Shown here one piece after another: positions 1 to 6,028 of a DNA stretch of 64,000 bases. Numbering within the stretch: position 1 is the stretch's first letter; every line of letters starts with the position of its first letter. This DNA comes from Mumia quercus (lineage in GTDB: Bacteria > Actinomycetota > Actinomycetes > Propionibacteriales > Nocardioidaceae). The stretch spans positions 544,221 through 608,220 of the forward strand of contig NZ_JANZYO010000002.1 of assembly GCF_025506335.1 (NCBI RefSeq). Reading direction: 5' to 3'. The position numbers and the translations under genes were made by a program. A model generated the notes under the pieces. The model saw only the letters and a list, made by a program, of their open reading frames with translations, was not told the DNA's origin and searched no databases.

Positions 1-1226
1 GTCCCCGCAGCGACCTGTCCGCTGAGCAGCAGGTCCTCCACGAGACGGAGCAGCCTGCGGGCGTTGCGCGCGATCACGGCGAGCTGGCCGACCTGCTCGT
101 CGGAGAGCGACTCGTCGAGCAGGAGGAGGTCGACATAACCCAGGATCGAGGCGAGCGGTGTGCGCAGCTCGTGGCTCACCAGGCCGATGAACTCGTCTTG
201 CAGCTGTTCGACCTTGCGCCTCTCGGTGATGTCGGTGGCGACGATGAGGTACCCGTCCTGCAGCGGCTCGTCGAGCGACGGCCTGCGCAAGACGATCACG
301 CCGGCGGGAAACGTGCTGCCGTCGGCGCGGACGAGGGTCCAGTCCCGTTGCTCGGTGCGTCCGTGCGCCGCCGCCCCGACGATGATCCGCATCCGGTCGG
401 CCGGCGCGTCCGGGATCCCACGCTGAGCGGCGACGTCACGCAGCTCTTCCTCGGAGAAGTACGGGAGGATCGACGCACCGACCCTCGTCACGTCGGGCGA
501 ACGGAGGAGCGTGCTCGCGCCAGGGCTCGCGAGGAGGACCCGCCCGTCCTGGTCCGTGGCGATCACCAGCTGCTCGGTGGCTGCGTCGACGATGCTGGCG
601 AGCACGGCCCGCGCCGCCTCGACACGGTCACCGAGGGCTTTCGCGCGGTCACGGCTCTCCGCGAGCGCGTCGGCCTGCGCGCGCAGCCTGGTCGTGACGG
701 CCGAAGCGCCGGCAGCGACCAGGAAGACGCAGATGACGAGGATGACGCCTCCGATCCTGTTCTCGAGGCGCTCGCGCGTGGCTCCGCTCCCGGGGGGCAA
801 GAAGACCAGCACCGCGACCGCCAGCGTGCCGAGCACGACACCGGCGCGACCCGGCTGCAGGGCGAGGTTGATCACGGGAAGGAAGAGCAGCCCGACGAAG
901 AGACCACGGTCGTAGCCGGTGGCGTACGCGAAGAGCACGAGCGCGACGATCTGGAGGAGCGGGAACACGAGGCCCACTCGAGGCGGCCAGCGACGCACCA
1001 GGCCGACTGCCGCGACCGCCTGGACAAGGGCGGCGAGGAGCACCGAGATCAGCAGCGAGACCGGACCGAGAACGTCGTCGGCGAGGAGCACGGCGGTGAC
1101 CGTGATCGCAAACACCACCGTGAACGGCAGCTCGCGCGCGCCCAGCACCCCTGTGTCGATCTGACTCCTGACCAGCCGTCCCAGATCGTGCCCGAAGCCG
1201 TCGCCGAGGGAGGGGCGTCCGCTCAC
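1..1226 (-). CDS. Membrane-anchored PAS sensor histidine kinase (3' end cut by window edge)
   Basis: The reverse strand reads open from a GTG at 1226 to the window edge (about 408 residues). The first ~190 residues hold several hydrophobic membrane segments. A PAS-like region follows at about residues 215-330, ending in the typical YLIVATDITERR strand. The HisKA dimerisation helix carries the phosphoacceptor motif SHELRTPL, with His at about residue 352. The ATP-binding HATPase domain would lie beyond the edge. The GTG overlaps the stop of the upstream receiver-deacetylase gene (GTGA), so the two are probably translationally coupled and form a cognate pair. The signal sensed is unknown. Family assignment is firm; partnership is inferred from the overlap. 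Confidence 0.9.
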   Translation of the reverse strand, partial: MSGRPSLGDGFGHDLGRLVRSQIDTGVLGARELPFTVVFAITVTAVLLADDVLGPVSLLISVLLAALVQAVAAVGLVRRWPPRVGLVFPLLQIVALVLFAYATGYDRGLFVGLLFLPVINLALQPGRAGVVLGTLAVAVLVFLPPGSGATRERLENRIGGVILVICVFLVAAGASAVTTRLRAQADALAESRDRAKALGDRVEAARAVLASIVDAATEQLVIATDQDGRVLLASPGASTLLRSPDVTRVGASILPYFSEEELRDVAAQRGIPDAPADRMRIIVGAAAHGRTEQRDWTLVRADGSTFPAGVIVLRRPSLDEPLQDGYLIVATDITERRKVEQLQDEFIGLVSHELRTPLASILGYVDLLLLDESLSDEQVGQLAVIARNARRLLRLVEDLLLSGQVAAG

Positions 1227-2272
1227 GTGTGGACCCCGGAGAGCTCGGTGAGCACCGCAGGGGACCCGATCAGCTCGGCCGCCCGTACGGTCTCCAGCGG
1301 CTCGGCCTCCCGGGCGGTCATGAACCGCGACCAGTAGCGAGCCGTCGCCCGTACGAGGTCGGGCGCCATGTAGTCACGGTGGGACTGGGAGGCGTACGCG
1401 GCGAGCATGCGGAGCTTCGTCTCGACGAAGCCCTCCACGTCGATGAAACGGTTCGGGCGGAAGTCGACCGTCGCCGACGGGCTCTGGAAGCACCACACGC
1501 CGGGCACCGTCCTCGTGGCCACCTCGACGGCCTGGTGGACGGCGCGGTGGTCCTGGTGGCGGTCGTGCGTGCTGTGGGTGTAGACGCGCTGGGGGTCGAC
1601 GTCCGCCACGACCTCTTCGATCGCGGTGATCAGCCCGCTCGCGGGGTCGAGGTGGGTGTCGGCGAAGTCGAGGTGCACGAGTCGAGCCCCGATGACGCCG
1701 GCCGCGGCGAGCGCCTCCTCGTGCCTGGCATCGACCTCGCCGCCGACCGCGCCCCCCGACAGCGTGAGGATGACGGTCTCGTCCCCGGCCGCCGCGTGCG
1801 CGGCGAGGGTGGCGCCGACACCGATCTCGATGTCGTCGGGATGTGCCCCGACGGCGAGCACGGTCTCACGTGCACGCGCGCGTCGCGCCAGGCCCTCCCG
1901 CGCGACCTCGTCGACCCGACGTGCCAGGTCGGCTGGGGGGACCGGTTTGACCAGGAACTCGTCCGCGTCACGCCGCAGCGCCTCGACGGCGTAGGAGACG
2001 ACGCCGTGGGCGGTCAAGATCACGACCGGGATCCCCGGCGCGAGCTCACGCAGGCGCGGCAGGATCGCGAGTCCTGACAGCCCGGGCAGCTCGATGTCGC
2101 TGACGACCACGTCGAACGACCTCTGCTCGAGCGCGGCGACCGCCTCGTCCGCGTCCCTCGCGAGCTCGACGTCCATCCCCGCCAGGCGGGTCAGCGCGAG
2201 GCGGGCGAAGTTCGCGGCGTCGGGGTCGTCCTCGATCACCAGCGCACGCAGCCGCCTGTCGCCGTCCGCCAC
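1223..2272 (-). CDS. Response regulator receiver domain fused to PIG-L (LmbE-like) deacetylase
   Basis: This 349-residue protein has two domains. Residues ~8-125 are a receiver: acidic pocket E14-D15-D16, phosphoacceptor D59 in VVSDIELPG, T87 and K109 in LVKP. Residues ~136-345 are a PIG-L/LmbE zinc hydrolase with AHPDD at 143-147 and a His-rich HDRHQDH motif. PIG-L enzymes remove N-acetyl groups from amino sugars such as GlcNAc conjugates. There is no DNA-binding domain, so the output is enzymatic. The start chosen is the GTG at 2272, preceded by GGGGGA, because the open frame upstream lacks homology. The stop overlaps the histidine kinase start by GTGA. The substrate is unknown; the domain calls are secure, and control of deacetylation by phosphorylation is inferred. 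Confidence 0.9.
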   Translation of the reverse strand: MADGDRRLRALVIEDDPDAANFARLALTRLAGMDVELARDADEAVAALEQRSFDVVVSDIELPGLSGLAILPRLRELAPGIPVVILTAHGVVSYAVEALRRDADEFLVKPVPPADLARRVDEVAREGLARRARARETVLAVGAHPDDIEIGVGATLAAHAAAGDETVILTLSGGAVGGEVDARHEEALAAAGVIGARLVHLDFADTHLDPASGLITAIEEVVADVDPQRVYTHSTHDRHQDHRAVHQAVEVATRTVPGVWCFQSPSATVDFRPNRFIDVEGFVETKLRMLAAYASQSHRDYMAPDLVRATARYWSRFMTAREAEPLETVRAAELIGSPAVLTELSGVHT

Positions 2273-2343: not shown

Positions 2344-2793
2344 TCAGTGGTGGACGTGCGCGTACTCGCCGAAGCGCAGCAGCATCGCAAGGAGCATGAA
2401 GACAGGCATGAGGACGTGGCCGATCATCATGACGCCCATCTCGCCCAGGACAGCGGCCCACAGCAGGGGGTAGAGCACCCAGAACCCCGCGTACATGGCG
2501 AGCGTCATCTCGACGACCGGCCGGAAGGCATGGCCCCGGACGACCATCCACGCAACCATCGGCGCGGCCATCGCGGTCGCCATGACGGTGGTCTCCACGT
2601 CGGCGCGCTGGAGCCACGCCGACTCTGCGGACGCCGTCGCCAGCGTCCACAGCGGGTACAGCGTCACCATGCCCAGGAGCATGGCGGCGATCATCTCCAG
2701 GTAGTGGCGTGTGAAGGCCCAGCCGGGCCGCTTCCACCAGGGATGCTGCACGGTCGAGACGGCGACGGCACCCGCGTCGTGGCTCCGGTCCAT
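2344..2793 (-). CDS. Four-helix membrane protein of unknown function
   Basis: The 149-residue product begins with a polar ~30-residue cytoplasmic stretch, followed by about four hydrophobic segments (roughly residues 35-55, 68-85, 92-112 and 114-136), and ends in a His-rich tail (EYAHVHH). I do not recognise the family. The ATG at 2793 is preferred over the longer frame because AGGGGGAA lies just upstream. It is divergently placed from the TetR regulator starting at 2907, with an inverted repeat in the gap, so it is the likely target of that repressor. A transport or envelope role is possible but cannot be shown from sequence. Confidence 0.75.
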   Translation of the reverse strand: MDRSHDAGAVAVSTVQHPWWKRPGWAFTRHYLEMIAAMLLGMVTLYPLWTLATASAESAWLQRADVETTVMATAMAAPMVAWMVVRGHAFRPVVEMTLAMYAGFWVLYPLLWAAVLGEMGVMMIGHVLMPVFMLLAMLLRFGEYAHVHH

Positions 2794-2806
2794 CGTTCCC
2801 CCTAAG

Positions 2807-2824
2807 TCGTACTCGAATGTACGA
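2807..2824. promoter_or_regulatory. Inverted repeat TCGTAC-N6-GTACGA, candidate TetR operator
   Basis: TCGTAC (2807-2812) and GTACGA (2819-2824) form an inverted repeat between the divergent membrane-protein and TetR genes. A further GTACGAG half-site lies at 2855-2861. Position and symmetry suit autoregulation by the adjacent TetR protein. GTAC is very common in this DNA, which weakens the call. Confidence 0.45.
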
Positions 2825-2906
2825 GATGACGGTAGCACGAACCTGGACCCGGGAGTACGAGTTATCATGGCTGCGTCGCGAACGGTCGTTCAGTGAAGGA
2901 GCCGAG

Positions 2907-3587
2907 ATGGTCGACGGAGTCCAGGAGGCGTCTGCCCCGCGACGGGCAGACGCGCTGCGCAACATCGCCACGATCGTCGAGGCCGCGACACAGAGCCTCG
3001 CCGCGGACCCCGACGTCAGCATGAACGCGATCGCCAAGGCGGCGGGCGTGGGCCGCATGACGCTCTACGGCCACTTCCCGTCGCGCGCAGCCCTTGTCGC
3101 CGAGGTGGTCGACCGCGCCCTGCGCGACGCCGAGGCCACGCTCGGAGCCGTCGACGTCACCGGCGACCCGTCGCCGGCCATGGAGCGCCTGCTGGATGCC
3201 TCGCTGCGCGTCACCTACCGGTACGGCGGCCTCGTGCAGGCCGCCGAGCAGGCCCTGTCCCCCGAGCGGTTCCAGCAGGCTCACATCGCCCAGCTCGACC
3301 GCACCAAGGCATTGCTCCGACGCGGGCGACGCAGCGGCGACTTCCGGCGCGACCTGCCGCTCGACTGGCAGGTCACGACCATCCAGAGCATCCTCCACAC
3401 GGCGGCGACCGCCGTGCACCACGGGTCGGTCTCCGCTGAGGACGCGCCGCGACTGGTGACGACCACCGTCATGGCGATGCTCGCGCCACCGCGCCCCCAC
3501 ACCGACGAGAGCACTAGTCCGCCCGCAGCACGCGCTCCGCGAACCGCGCCGAGCGGTCACGGAGCCCCGCGACCCGTCGGGCGATGA
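2907..3587 (+). CDS. TetR family transcriptional regulator
   Basis: This 226-residue regulator has an N-terminal helix-turn-helix at about residues 30-60 (MNAIAKAAGVGRMTLYGHFPSR), typical of TetR repressors, and a helical ligand-binding half. The ATG at 2907 is chosen because GAAGGAG precedes it; the longer open frame begins inside the putative operator. The last ~25 residues are a Pro/Ala/Arg-rich low-complexity tail encoded opposite the 3' end of the FBP gene, giving a 74-bp convergent overlap. The likely target is the divergent membrane protein. The ligand is unknown. Confidence 0.88.
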   Translation: MVDGVQEASAPRRADALRNIATIVEAATQSLAADPDVSMNAIAKAAGVGRMTLYGHFPSRAALVAEVVDRALRDAEATLGAVDVTGDPSPAMERLLDASLRVTYRYGGLVQAAEQALSPERFQQAHIAQLDRTKALLRRGRRSGDFRRDLPLDWQVTTIQSILHTAATAVHHGSVSAEDAPRLVTTTVMAMLAPPRPHTDESTSPPAARAPRTAPSGHGAPRPVGR

Positions 3588-4479: not shown

Positions 4480-4869
4480 ATGACCGACGTCGACACTGTC
4501 CAGGACGAGCAGTCGCCCTACGCGCGCGTCGGCGGGGGCGCCGCTGTACGCGTCGTCGTCGACCGCTTCTACGAGCGCGTGATGGCCGATCCCACGCTCG
4601 CGCCGTACTTCACCGACAGCGACCTGACGAACCTCAAGCGCCACCAGGTTCAGCTGATCTCGCACCTCCTCGGCGGCCCGGTGTCGTACGAGGGACGCGA
4701 GCTGCGCGACGCGCACGCGGGTCTCGACATCACGCCGGAGGCGTACGGCCGCGTGGTCGAGCACCTGGTCGGCGTCCTCGTCGAGGCAGGCGTCCCAGAC
4801 GACATCCTGGCCTCCCTCGGCGAAACCCTCACGGCCGTTCAACCCGACATCGTCAGCCAGCAGAGCTGA
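4480..4869 (+). CDS. glbN: Group I truncated haemoglobin (trHbN)
   Basis: This 129-residue globin has the short two-over-two fold signature of group I truncated haemoglobins: a shortened N-terminus, the B10 tyrosine (Y31 in VDRFYERV), a Gly-rich region after helix E (HLLGGP) and the proximal F8 histidine H79 in RELRDAHAGLDIT. Members bind O2 and NO; the mycobacterial GlbN oxidises NO to nitrate with oxygen. The ATG at 4480 is supported by the family length. The flavohaemoglobin gene begins 4 bp after the stop, so the two are very likely co-transcribed in an NO-detoxifying unit, with the reductase partner supplied next door. Confidence 0.92.
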   Translation: MTDVDTVQDEQSPYARVGGGAAVRVVVDRFYERVMADPTLAPYFTDSDLTNLKRHQVQLISHLLGGPVSYEGRELRDAHAGLDITPEAYGRVVEHLVGVLVEAGVPDDILASLGETLTAVQPDIVSQQS

Positions 4870-4873
4870 GCCC

Positions 4874-6028
4874 GTGGATCCTGCAGCACTCAAGGAGAGC
4901 TGGGCGTACGTCGCCAAGAGCGGCGACGACGTCCCCCTCTTCTTCTATTCCCACCTCTTCTTGTCGCACCCCGAGGTGCGCAGCATGTTCCCCGTCTCCA
5001 TGTCGGCGCAGCGGGACAAGCTGGTCACGGCGCTAGGCACGGTGGTGAGCAACGTCGACCAGTTCGACACCGTCGCTCCGCTGCTCGGCCAGCTGGGGAG
5101 CGACCACCGCCGGTTCCGGGTCGATCCCGACCAGTACAACGCGGTCGGCGGCTCGCTCCTCGCCACACTGAAGCACTTCCTCGGTGACCAGTGGACCGAC
5201 GAGCTCGCCAACGACTGGGCCACCGCGTACGGCGTGATCGCGAAGACGATGGTCCAGGGTGCCGAGGAGTCGGCCAAGACCACGCCCTCGTGGTGGAACG
5301 CCGAGGTCGTGGCGGCCGACCGTCGTACGCTCGACGTCGCCGTCCTCCAGCTGCGGCCCGAGCAGCCCCTGCCGTACCAGCCCGGACAGTCCGTGGCGAT
5401 CGAGGTCCCACAGCGTCCCCGCCTGTGGCGCTACTACTCGCCCGCCAACGCCCCGCGCGAGGACGGCACCCTCGAGGTGCACGTCCAGATCGTCGACGGT
5501 GGTCAGGTCAGCAGCGCGATGGTCAAGGACGTGCGGGTGGGCGACACGTTGCGGCTGAGCGCAGCCGTCGGCACCGCGCTCACGGTCGACGACATGTCCC
5601 AGGACCTGCTCCTCGTCGCCGGCGGCACCGGGCTCGCGCCTCTCAAGGCGGTCGCCGAGCAGGTCGACCGCCACTGGCTCGCCACCGGCCGAGGCCCGAA
5701 GGTCCACCTCTTCCACGGTGCGCGGATGCCCTGGAACCTGTACGACGAGGTCGCGATGAACGCGCTCGCCGACCGGCCCTGGTTCTCCTACGACACCGCG
5801 GTCTCCGACGACGCGACCTATCCCGGCCGGCACGGCACGGTCGGTGACGTCGCCGTCTCCCGCGGCGGCTGGCGCGGCTACCGCGCCCTGGTGTGCGGCT
5901 CGCGAGCGATGATCGAGGCCACGGTCTCGCAGCTCGTGGCCGCAGGCATTCCCCCAGAAGACATCCGGTACGAGGACTTCGGCGAAGGCGGCTACCGACC
6001 GCGTACCGACACGCAAAAGGACGGGTGA
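4874..6028 (+). CDS. hmp: Flavohaemoglobin, nitric oxide dioxygenase
   Basis: The 384-residue protein has an N-terminal globin domain (1-~135) with B10 Tyr25, E7 Gln46 and proximal His78, then a ferredoxin-reductase-like FAD domain (~145-245, flavin motif RYYS) and an NAD(P)-binding domain with GGTGLAP near residue 255. It converts NO and O2 to nitrate using NAD(P)H in the cytoplasm. Its length is slightly below the ~395-400 of enterobacterial Hmp. The GTG start follows the trHbN stop by 4 bp, and the DivIVA-like gene follows 5 bp later, so all three form one operon. A trHbN gene and a flavohaemoglobin gene side by side suggests division of labour at different NO or O2 levels. Confidence 0.93.
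   Translation: MDPAALKESWAYVAKSGDDVPLFFYSHLFLSHPEVRSMFPVSMSAQRDKLVTALGTVVSNVDQFDTVAPLLGQLGSDHRRFRVDPDQYNAVGGSLLATLKHFLGDQWTDELANDWATAYGVIAKTMVQGAEESAKTTPSWWNAEVVAADRRTLDVAVLQLRPEQPLPYQPGQSVAIEVPQRPRLWRYYSPANAPREDGTLEVHVQIVDGGQVSSAMVKDVRVGDTLRLSAAVGTALTVDDMSQDLLLVAGGTGLAPLKAVAEQVDRHWLATGRGPKVHLFHGARMPWNLYDEVAMNALADRPWFSYDTAVSDDATYPGRHGTVGDVAVSRGGWRGYRALVCGSRAMIEATVSQLVAAGIPPEDIRYEDFGEGGYRPRTDTQKDG

Follow-up and report, generated by a model that had tools for sequence, protein, structure and literature searches.

A receiver–PIG-L response regulator of Mumia quercus and its relatives: a candidate two-component system with an enzyme as output, encoded among glycan genes

The known response regulators that carry an enzyme as output, among them CheB, PleD and DgcR, have proteins or second messengers as their main targets. 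A regulator with another type of enzyme was analysed here in a 64,000-nucleotide stretch of the Mumia quercus genome (the window; positions 544221–608220 of contig NZ_JANZYO010000002.1, forward strand, with feature coordinates counted from window position 1), in which a gene encoding a receiver fused to a PIG-L/LmbE-type amidohydrolase overlaps a histidine kinase gene. As in CheB, PleD and DgcR, receiver and enzyme are combined in one chain and a kinase gene adjoins, whereas the output here is a PIG-L amidohydrolase encoded within a glycan gene cluster, and its control by phosphorylation is predicted. Judged from sequence, receiver–PIG-L proteins form a family whose neighbouring genes are conserved across several actinobacterial families and two further phyla, and are thus not the unusual pairing proposed in a first-pass annotation of this DNA.

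In mycothiol, bacillithiol and Nod-factor synthesis, a transferase, a deacetylase and an N-acylating enzyme act in that order. The PIG-L-type enzymes BshB/BC1534, MshB and the diacetylchitobiose deacetylases share their fold and motif residues with the present protein but were solved as chains without a receiver, and some members of this fold, such as the fold match GalB, perform other chemistry. According to PMC5847659, archaeal MTH_548 comprises a receiver fused to a BcsA-like family 2 glycosyltransferase (GT2); this likewise joins a receiver to a glycan enzyme, although the fused partner there is the glycosyltransferase, whereas in the present system the deacetylase carries the receiver and a separate gene nearby encodes the GT2. 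The terms 'PIG-L', 'LmbE' and 'deacetylase' were not found in term searches of PMC5847659 and PMC1183210. No description of a receiver–PIG-L output domain was found in the literature searched, which is a partial collection and does not establish absence from print.

The regulator and its overlapping kinase gene

The features of the locus are as follows.

1223..2272, reverse strand: receiver–PIG-L response regulator gene, 349 amino acids (aa), with a GTG start at 2272 and a TGA stop at 1223–1225
1913..2242, reverse strand: receiver domain, residues 11–120, with the codon of D59 at 2096–2098
1874..1934, reverse strand: long last receiver helix, residues 113–133, in the predicted model (predicted local distance difference test score 86 overall)
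1271..1867, reverse strand: PIG-L/LmbE amidohydrolase domain, residues 136–334 (Pfam 139–252)
1223..1226, reverse strand: GTGA overlap of the regulator stop and the kinase start
1..1226, reverse strand: membrane histidine kinase, first 408 codons (3–1226), the gene continuing past the window edge

Both domains of the regulator were matched well above their Pfam cut-offs (Response_reg, residues 11–120, 93.1 bits against 30.2; PIG-L, residues 139–252, 82.9 bits against 28.2), and both were present in 22/22 members of alignment A1. The phosphorylation residues D59, T87 and K109 named in the first-pass annotation were found at those positions, in a receiver that is complete by sequence. The PIG-L site was equally complete, and its AHPDD and His-rich motifs agreed with that annotation: AHPDD at residues 143–147 (H144, D146 and D147), H233, D237 and the HQDH motif (H239, D241 and H242). 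Fold searches matched the receiver to PleD and DgcR, while the nearest folds to the PIG-L domain were BC1534 and BshB, followed by TT1542, GalB and diacetylchitobiose deacetylases. In the predicted model, the first PIG-L strand begins four residues past the end of the long last receiver helix. The most hydrophobic 19-residue stretch of the protein (mean 1.66, beginning at residue 81) corresponds to a receiver strand and no membrane segment is present, and the regulator is therefore taken as cytosolic.

The kinase gene was shown to overlap, through the GTGA at 1223–1226, the gene of a predicted soluble protein in which a complete phosphorylation pocket is joined to a zinc-amidohydrolase site. 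In the genome, the whole kinase is 582 aa long (L006:8699–10447) and contains HisKA (60 bits) and HATPase_c (95 bits) domains, as well as about six overlapping hydrophobic segments in residues 30–181. Its earlier description as a membrane PAS histidine kinase thus holds for the membrane and kinase parts, but the PAS assignment is weak, as the PAS_4 match (21.3 bits) lies below its cut-off of 23.1.

Several other roles for the regulator were rejected. A DNA-binding function is ruled out, as the PIG-L fold was shown by fold comparison to extend as far as residue 334; in agreement with the first-pass annotation, a Pfam search at E values up to 1 added to the two domains just two sub-threshold matches, and neither of these is DNA-binding. 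A BshB1 bacillithiol deacetylase is ruled out by the TIGR04001 score (82.8 bits versus a cut-off of 182.5), and a mycothiol role is improbable because the genome has its own genes for MshB (342.9 bits) and Mca (457.1 bits), both scoring over their cut-offs; the MshB model TIGR03445 was absent among the best 25 of 104 families matched by the regulator. Finally, a defence protein was rejected, since PADLOC reported only SduA for the regulator (25.3 bits, over the receiver); it gave no match for five neighbour proteins.

Distribution and conservation of the fusion

A scan of genome contigs retained 80 loci, with full fusions in 21 (L007–L027) that were labelled as Mumia (77% identity), Cellulomonas (16), Microbacterium, Blastococcus, and metagenome-assembled genomes of a 'proteobacterium' and a member of the Myxococcota. 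Genome samples contributed a further 17 non-redundant fusions, giving 39 full fusions including that of the window, which rules out an open reading frame or assembly artefact. Within the family of the window's organism, 16/197 genomes were positive at E≤1e-60 (12 full fusions and four with degenerate receivers), and 5/396 genomes of its phylum were positive at E≤1e-50 (three full fusions, one being the window's own, and two with PIG-L only). In the phylum of genome G591, 3/195 genomes were positive (two full, one PIG-L only), as were 7/282 in that of genome G592 (five full, one genome with two copies lacking the PIG-L motifs and one with a degenerate receiver). Further phyla yielded 1/349 (PIG-L only), 0/249 and 0/148; in all these samples 5–13 first-look candidates were scored per genome, so that absence is not proof. 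The 39 fusions are not independent, as 16 derive from Cellulomonas and 12 from the window's family.

Across the fusions, the phospho-acceptor D59, K109, P110, H144, D146, D147, E149, H233, D237, H239, D241 and H242 were invariant (39/39), eight active-site positions of the PIG-L domain being among them. Switch position 87 was occupied by T in 37 and S in two, and switch position 106 by F in 35 and Y in four, while the acidic-pocket residue D15 was retained in 38/39. Mean identity to the window protein was 49% for the receivers and 67% for the PIG-L domains, and the conserved receiver positions stand out because receivers drift faster than the PIG-L domains. The invariant PIG-L residues also bear on the possibility, raised in the first-pass annotation, that the zinc ligands are non-functional: by sequence the motifs are intact in all 39 fusions, but they are broken in two related proteins with live receivers encoded in genome G1051 (see below).

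Gene neighbourhood and natural variants

In the fetched flanks, a CarB/PylC-like ATP-grasp enzyme was encoded near 37/39 fusion genes, a PgaC-like GT2 near 34/39 and a histidine kinase near 36/39. The Q(R/K)xRW motif of processive synthases was retained in 35/35 GT2s, comprising these 34 and one beside a degenerate receiver. PgaC_IcaA was the best model for the GT2 (167.6 bits in the window's genome and 117.2 in Cellulomonas), both scores lying below its cut-off of 422.3, with further matches to NodC (86.7 bits) and HpnI (43.1 bits). Sequence searches gave no identification of the glycosidase-like neighbour found in 11/39 loci, those of Mumia and its kin. It encodes an anchored glycosidase-type barrel, and the C-terminal domain of PgaB is among the fold matches tied for best. 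As a control, none of the four other PIG-L genes of the window's genome had any such neighbours; these are distant paralogues, because they were not matched by the cluster's PIG-L query at E≤1e-8. This shared sugar-gene company suggests that the sensor may directly switch a step in surface-sugar synthesis.

Two described glycan systems resemble this cluster. The pga/ica poly-N-acetylglucosamine (PNAG) loci share a PgaC-like GT2, a deacetylase and, in the 11 loci mentioned above, a barrel of possible PgaB type; here, however, the deacetylase is of the PIG-L type, cytosolic and receiver-fused, an ATP-grasp enzyme is added and the GT2 scores under the PgaC_IcaA cut-off. The NodC-NodB-NodA system similarly combines a synthase that the GT2 matches, a deacetylase and an amine-acylating enzyme, for which a candidate is present here, but the deacetylase and acylating families differ, receiver control is predicted and the product is hypothetical. 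No NodB-type (CE4) deacetylase was found among the cluster proteins scanned, no dedicated CE4 search of these genomes having been made.

Relatives that lack a receiver, or in which one domain has decayed, were also compared; receivers were scored as degenerate, PIG-L sites as dead and stretches as TPR-like by eye from the printed sequences. Receiver-less PIG-L genes adjoin GT2 and ATP-grasp genes in loci L048, L070, L122 and L123, and the PIG-L enzyme itself is therefore tied to the glycan module. In a further arrangement (L055:650–4851 and L136:7364–11548), a receiver-less PIG-L protein with a long TPR-like N-terminus is followed by a GT2 and the glycosidase-like part, which in L055 form one 793-aa protein; this resembles PgaC/PgaB, but with a PIG-L deacetylase.

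Four proteins of the window's family (G128, G132, G145 and G005) combine an intact PIG-L domain with a receiver that has neither the acidic pocket nor the lysine; at the position of D59 they carry D, E, D and A, respectively, and neither ATP-grasp nor GT2 was found in the fetched stretch of any of them (0/4). A fifth protein with a degenerate receiver (G839, locus L142) has kept its ATP-grasp and GT2 neighbours. Conversely, G1051 (L141:7915–11197) encodes two adjacent proteins on opposite strands with live receivers and without the PIG-L motifs. They may be a pair of pseudo-enzymes, and neither an ATP-grasp nor a GT2 match was obtained in 18 kb at this locus.

A PIG-L tree of 106 rows, constructed by a quick method, united the 39 fusions and the five degenerate ones in a single group (Shimodaira–Hasegawa-like approximate likelihood ratio test value of 84), in which the first four degenerate proteins were nested and G839 was basal on a long branch. 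The receiver-less cluster members fell outside this group. The simplest reading is that the glycan module is older and that the receiver was fused once and later decayed in places.

Other genes near the regulator were also recorded. Upstream on the same strand, window positions 2347–2868 hold a 174-aa open reading frame that has hydrophobic stretches and matches no Pfam family; a TetR-type regulator (TetR_N, 38.7 bits) is encoded divergently at 2817–3587 on the forward strand. The forward strand also carries, at 4480–6028, a gene for a truncated globin (Bac_globin, 63 bits) and, after it, one for a flavohaemoglobin-like protein (Globin, FAD_binding_6 and NAD_binding_1); the two may represent a nitric-oxide detoxification pair.

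Proposed mechanism and alternative readings

The reading that we prefer, with a probability of about 0.5, is that of a two-component system whose output is an enzyme: the kinase would gate a cytosolic deacetylase acting on a cytosol-reachable N-acetylglucosamine (GlcNAc) unit that the GT2 produces or consumes. Upon a signal, the kinase would phosphorylate D59, and the receiver would alter its shape or dimerise via its long last helix, thereby activating (or shutting down) the PIG-L domain. The latter would deacetylate GlcNAc carried by a sugar nucleotide, by a lipid-linked sugar or by the GT2 product at its growing or released end, after which the ATP-grasp enzyme encoded nearby may attach an acyl group to the liberated amine. 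The result would be an altered glycan at the surface or an altered amino-sugar conjugate, with enzyme activity rather than transcription as the point of control. A PNAG-like role would require this step to occur before export, because a cytosolic deacetylase cannot reach an exported polymer. The interpretation in the first-pass annotation, that of phosphorylation-controlled deacetylation of an amino-sugar or lipid-linked glycan, is plausible, and is backed further by the glycan context outside the piece of DNA on which it was based. A more specific form may be put forward tentatively: a route resembling NodC-NodB-NodA that a two-component system would control directly, in which the ATP-grasp enzyme would add an amino acid or other carboxylate, and in which some lineages would have lost the switch or the site.

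The receiver might instead gate an enzyme that acts on a small GlcNAc conjugate inside the cell (a thiol, lipid or sugar nucleotide) and on no polymer, as is the case for BshB, MshB and HpnI/HpnK. The position of BshB among the closest folds, the lack of a membrane segment in the regulator, the HpnI match of the GT2 (43.1 bits) and the ATP-grasp neighbour in 37/39 loci are all consistent with such a substrate, but the processive-synthase motif in all 35 GT2s examined, the wide margin by which PgaC_IcaA is the best GT2 model and the anchored barrel in 11/39 loci argue for a polymer, which makes a small conjugate rather doubtful.

It is less probable still that PIG-L acts as the enzyme while the receiver only dimerises or binds a partner such as the synthase, with phosphorylation exerting no control over catalysis. 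The four same-family relatives and the fifth elsewhere, with degenerate receivers and intact PIG-L domains, together with the retained GT2 and ATP-grasp neighbours of L142, speak for it, and the enzyme can therefore do without the switch. In the fusions, however, both the phosphorylation and the switch positions are conserved (39/39) in a receiver that otherwise drifts, and in the window's genome the kinase gene overlaps that of the regulator. That the chief role of PIG-L is phospho-controlled binding or scaffolding, with catalysis secondary, would agree with the two G1051 proteins but is very improbable given that the PIG-L motif residues are kept in 39/39 fusions.

With respect to gating of the enzyme by its receiver, natural contrasts exist in both directions (a live enzyme with a degenerate receiver, and a live receiver with a dead enzyme), and the fusion is also found in named genera that are in culture, Cellulomonas among them, so that receiver gating of PIG-L is testable now. 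If true, a receiver-gated sugar amidohydrolase would constitute a direct sensor-to-envelope switch, and, should the Nod-like route apply, a glycan of the bacterial surface would be modified in response to signals with no transcriptional step.
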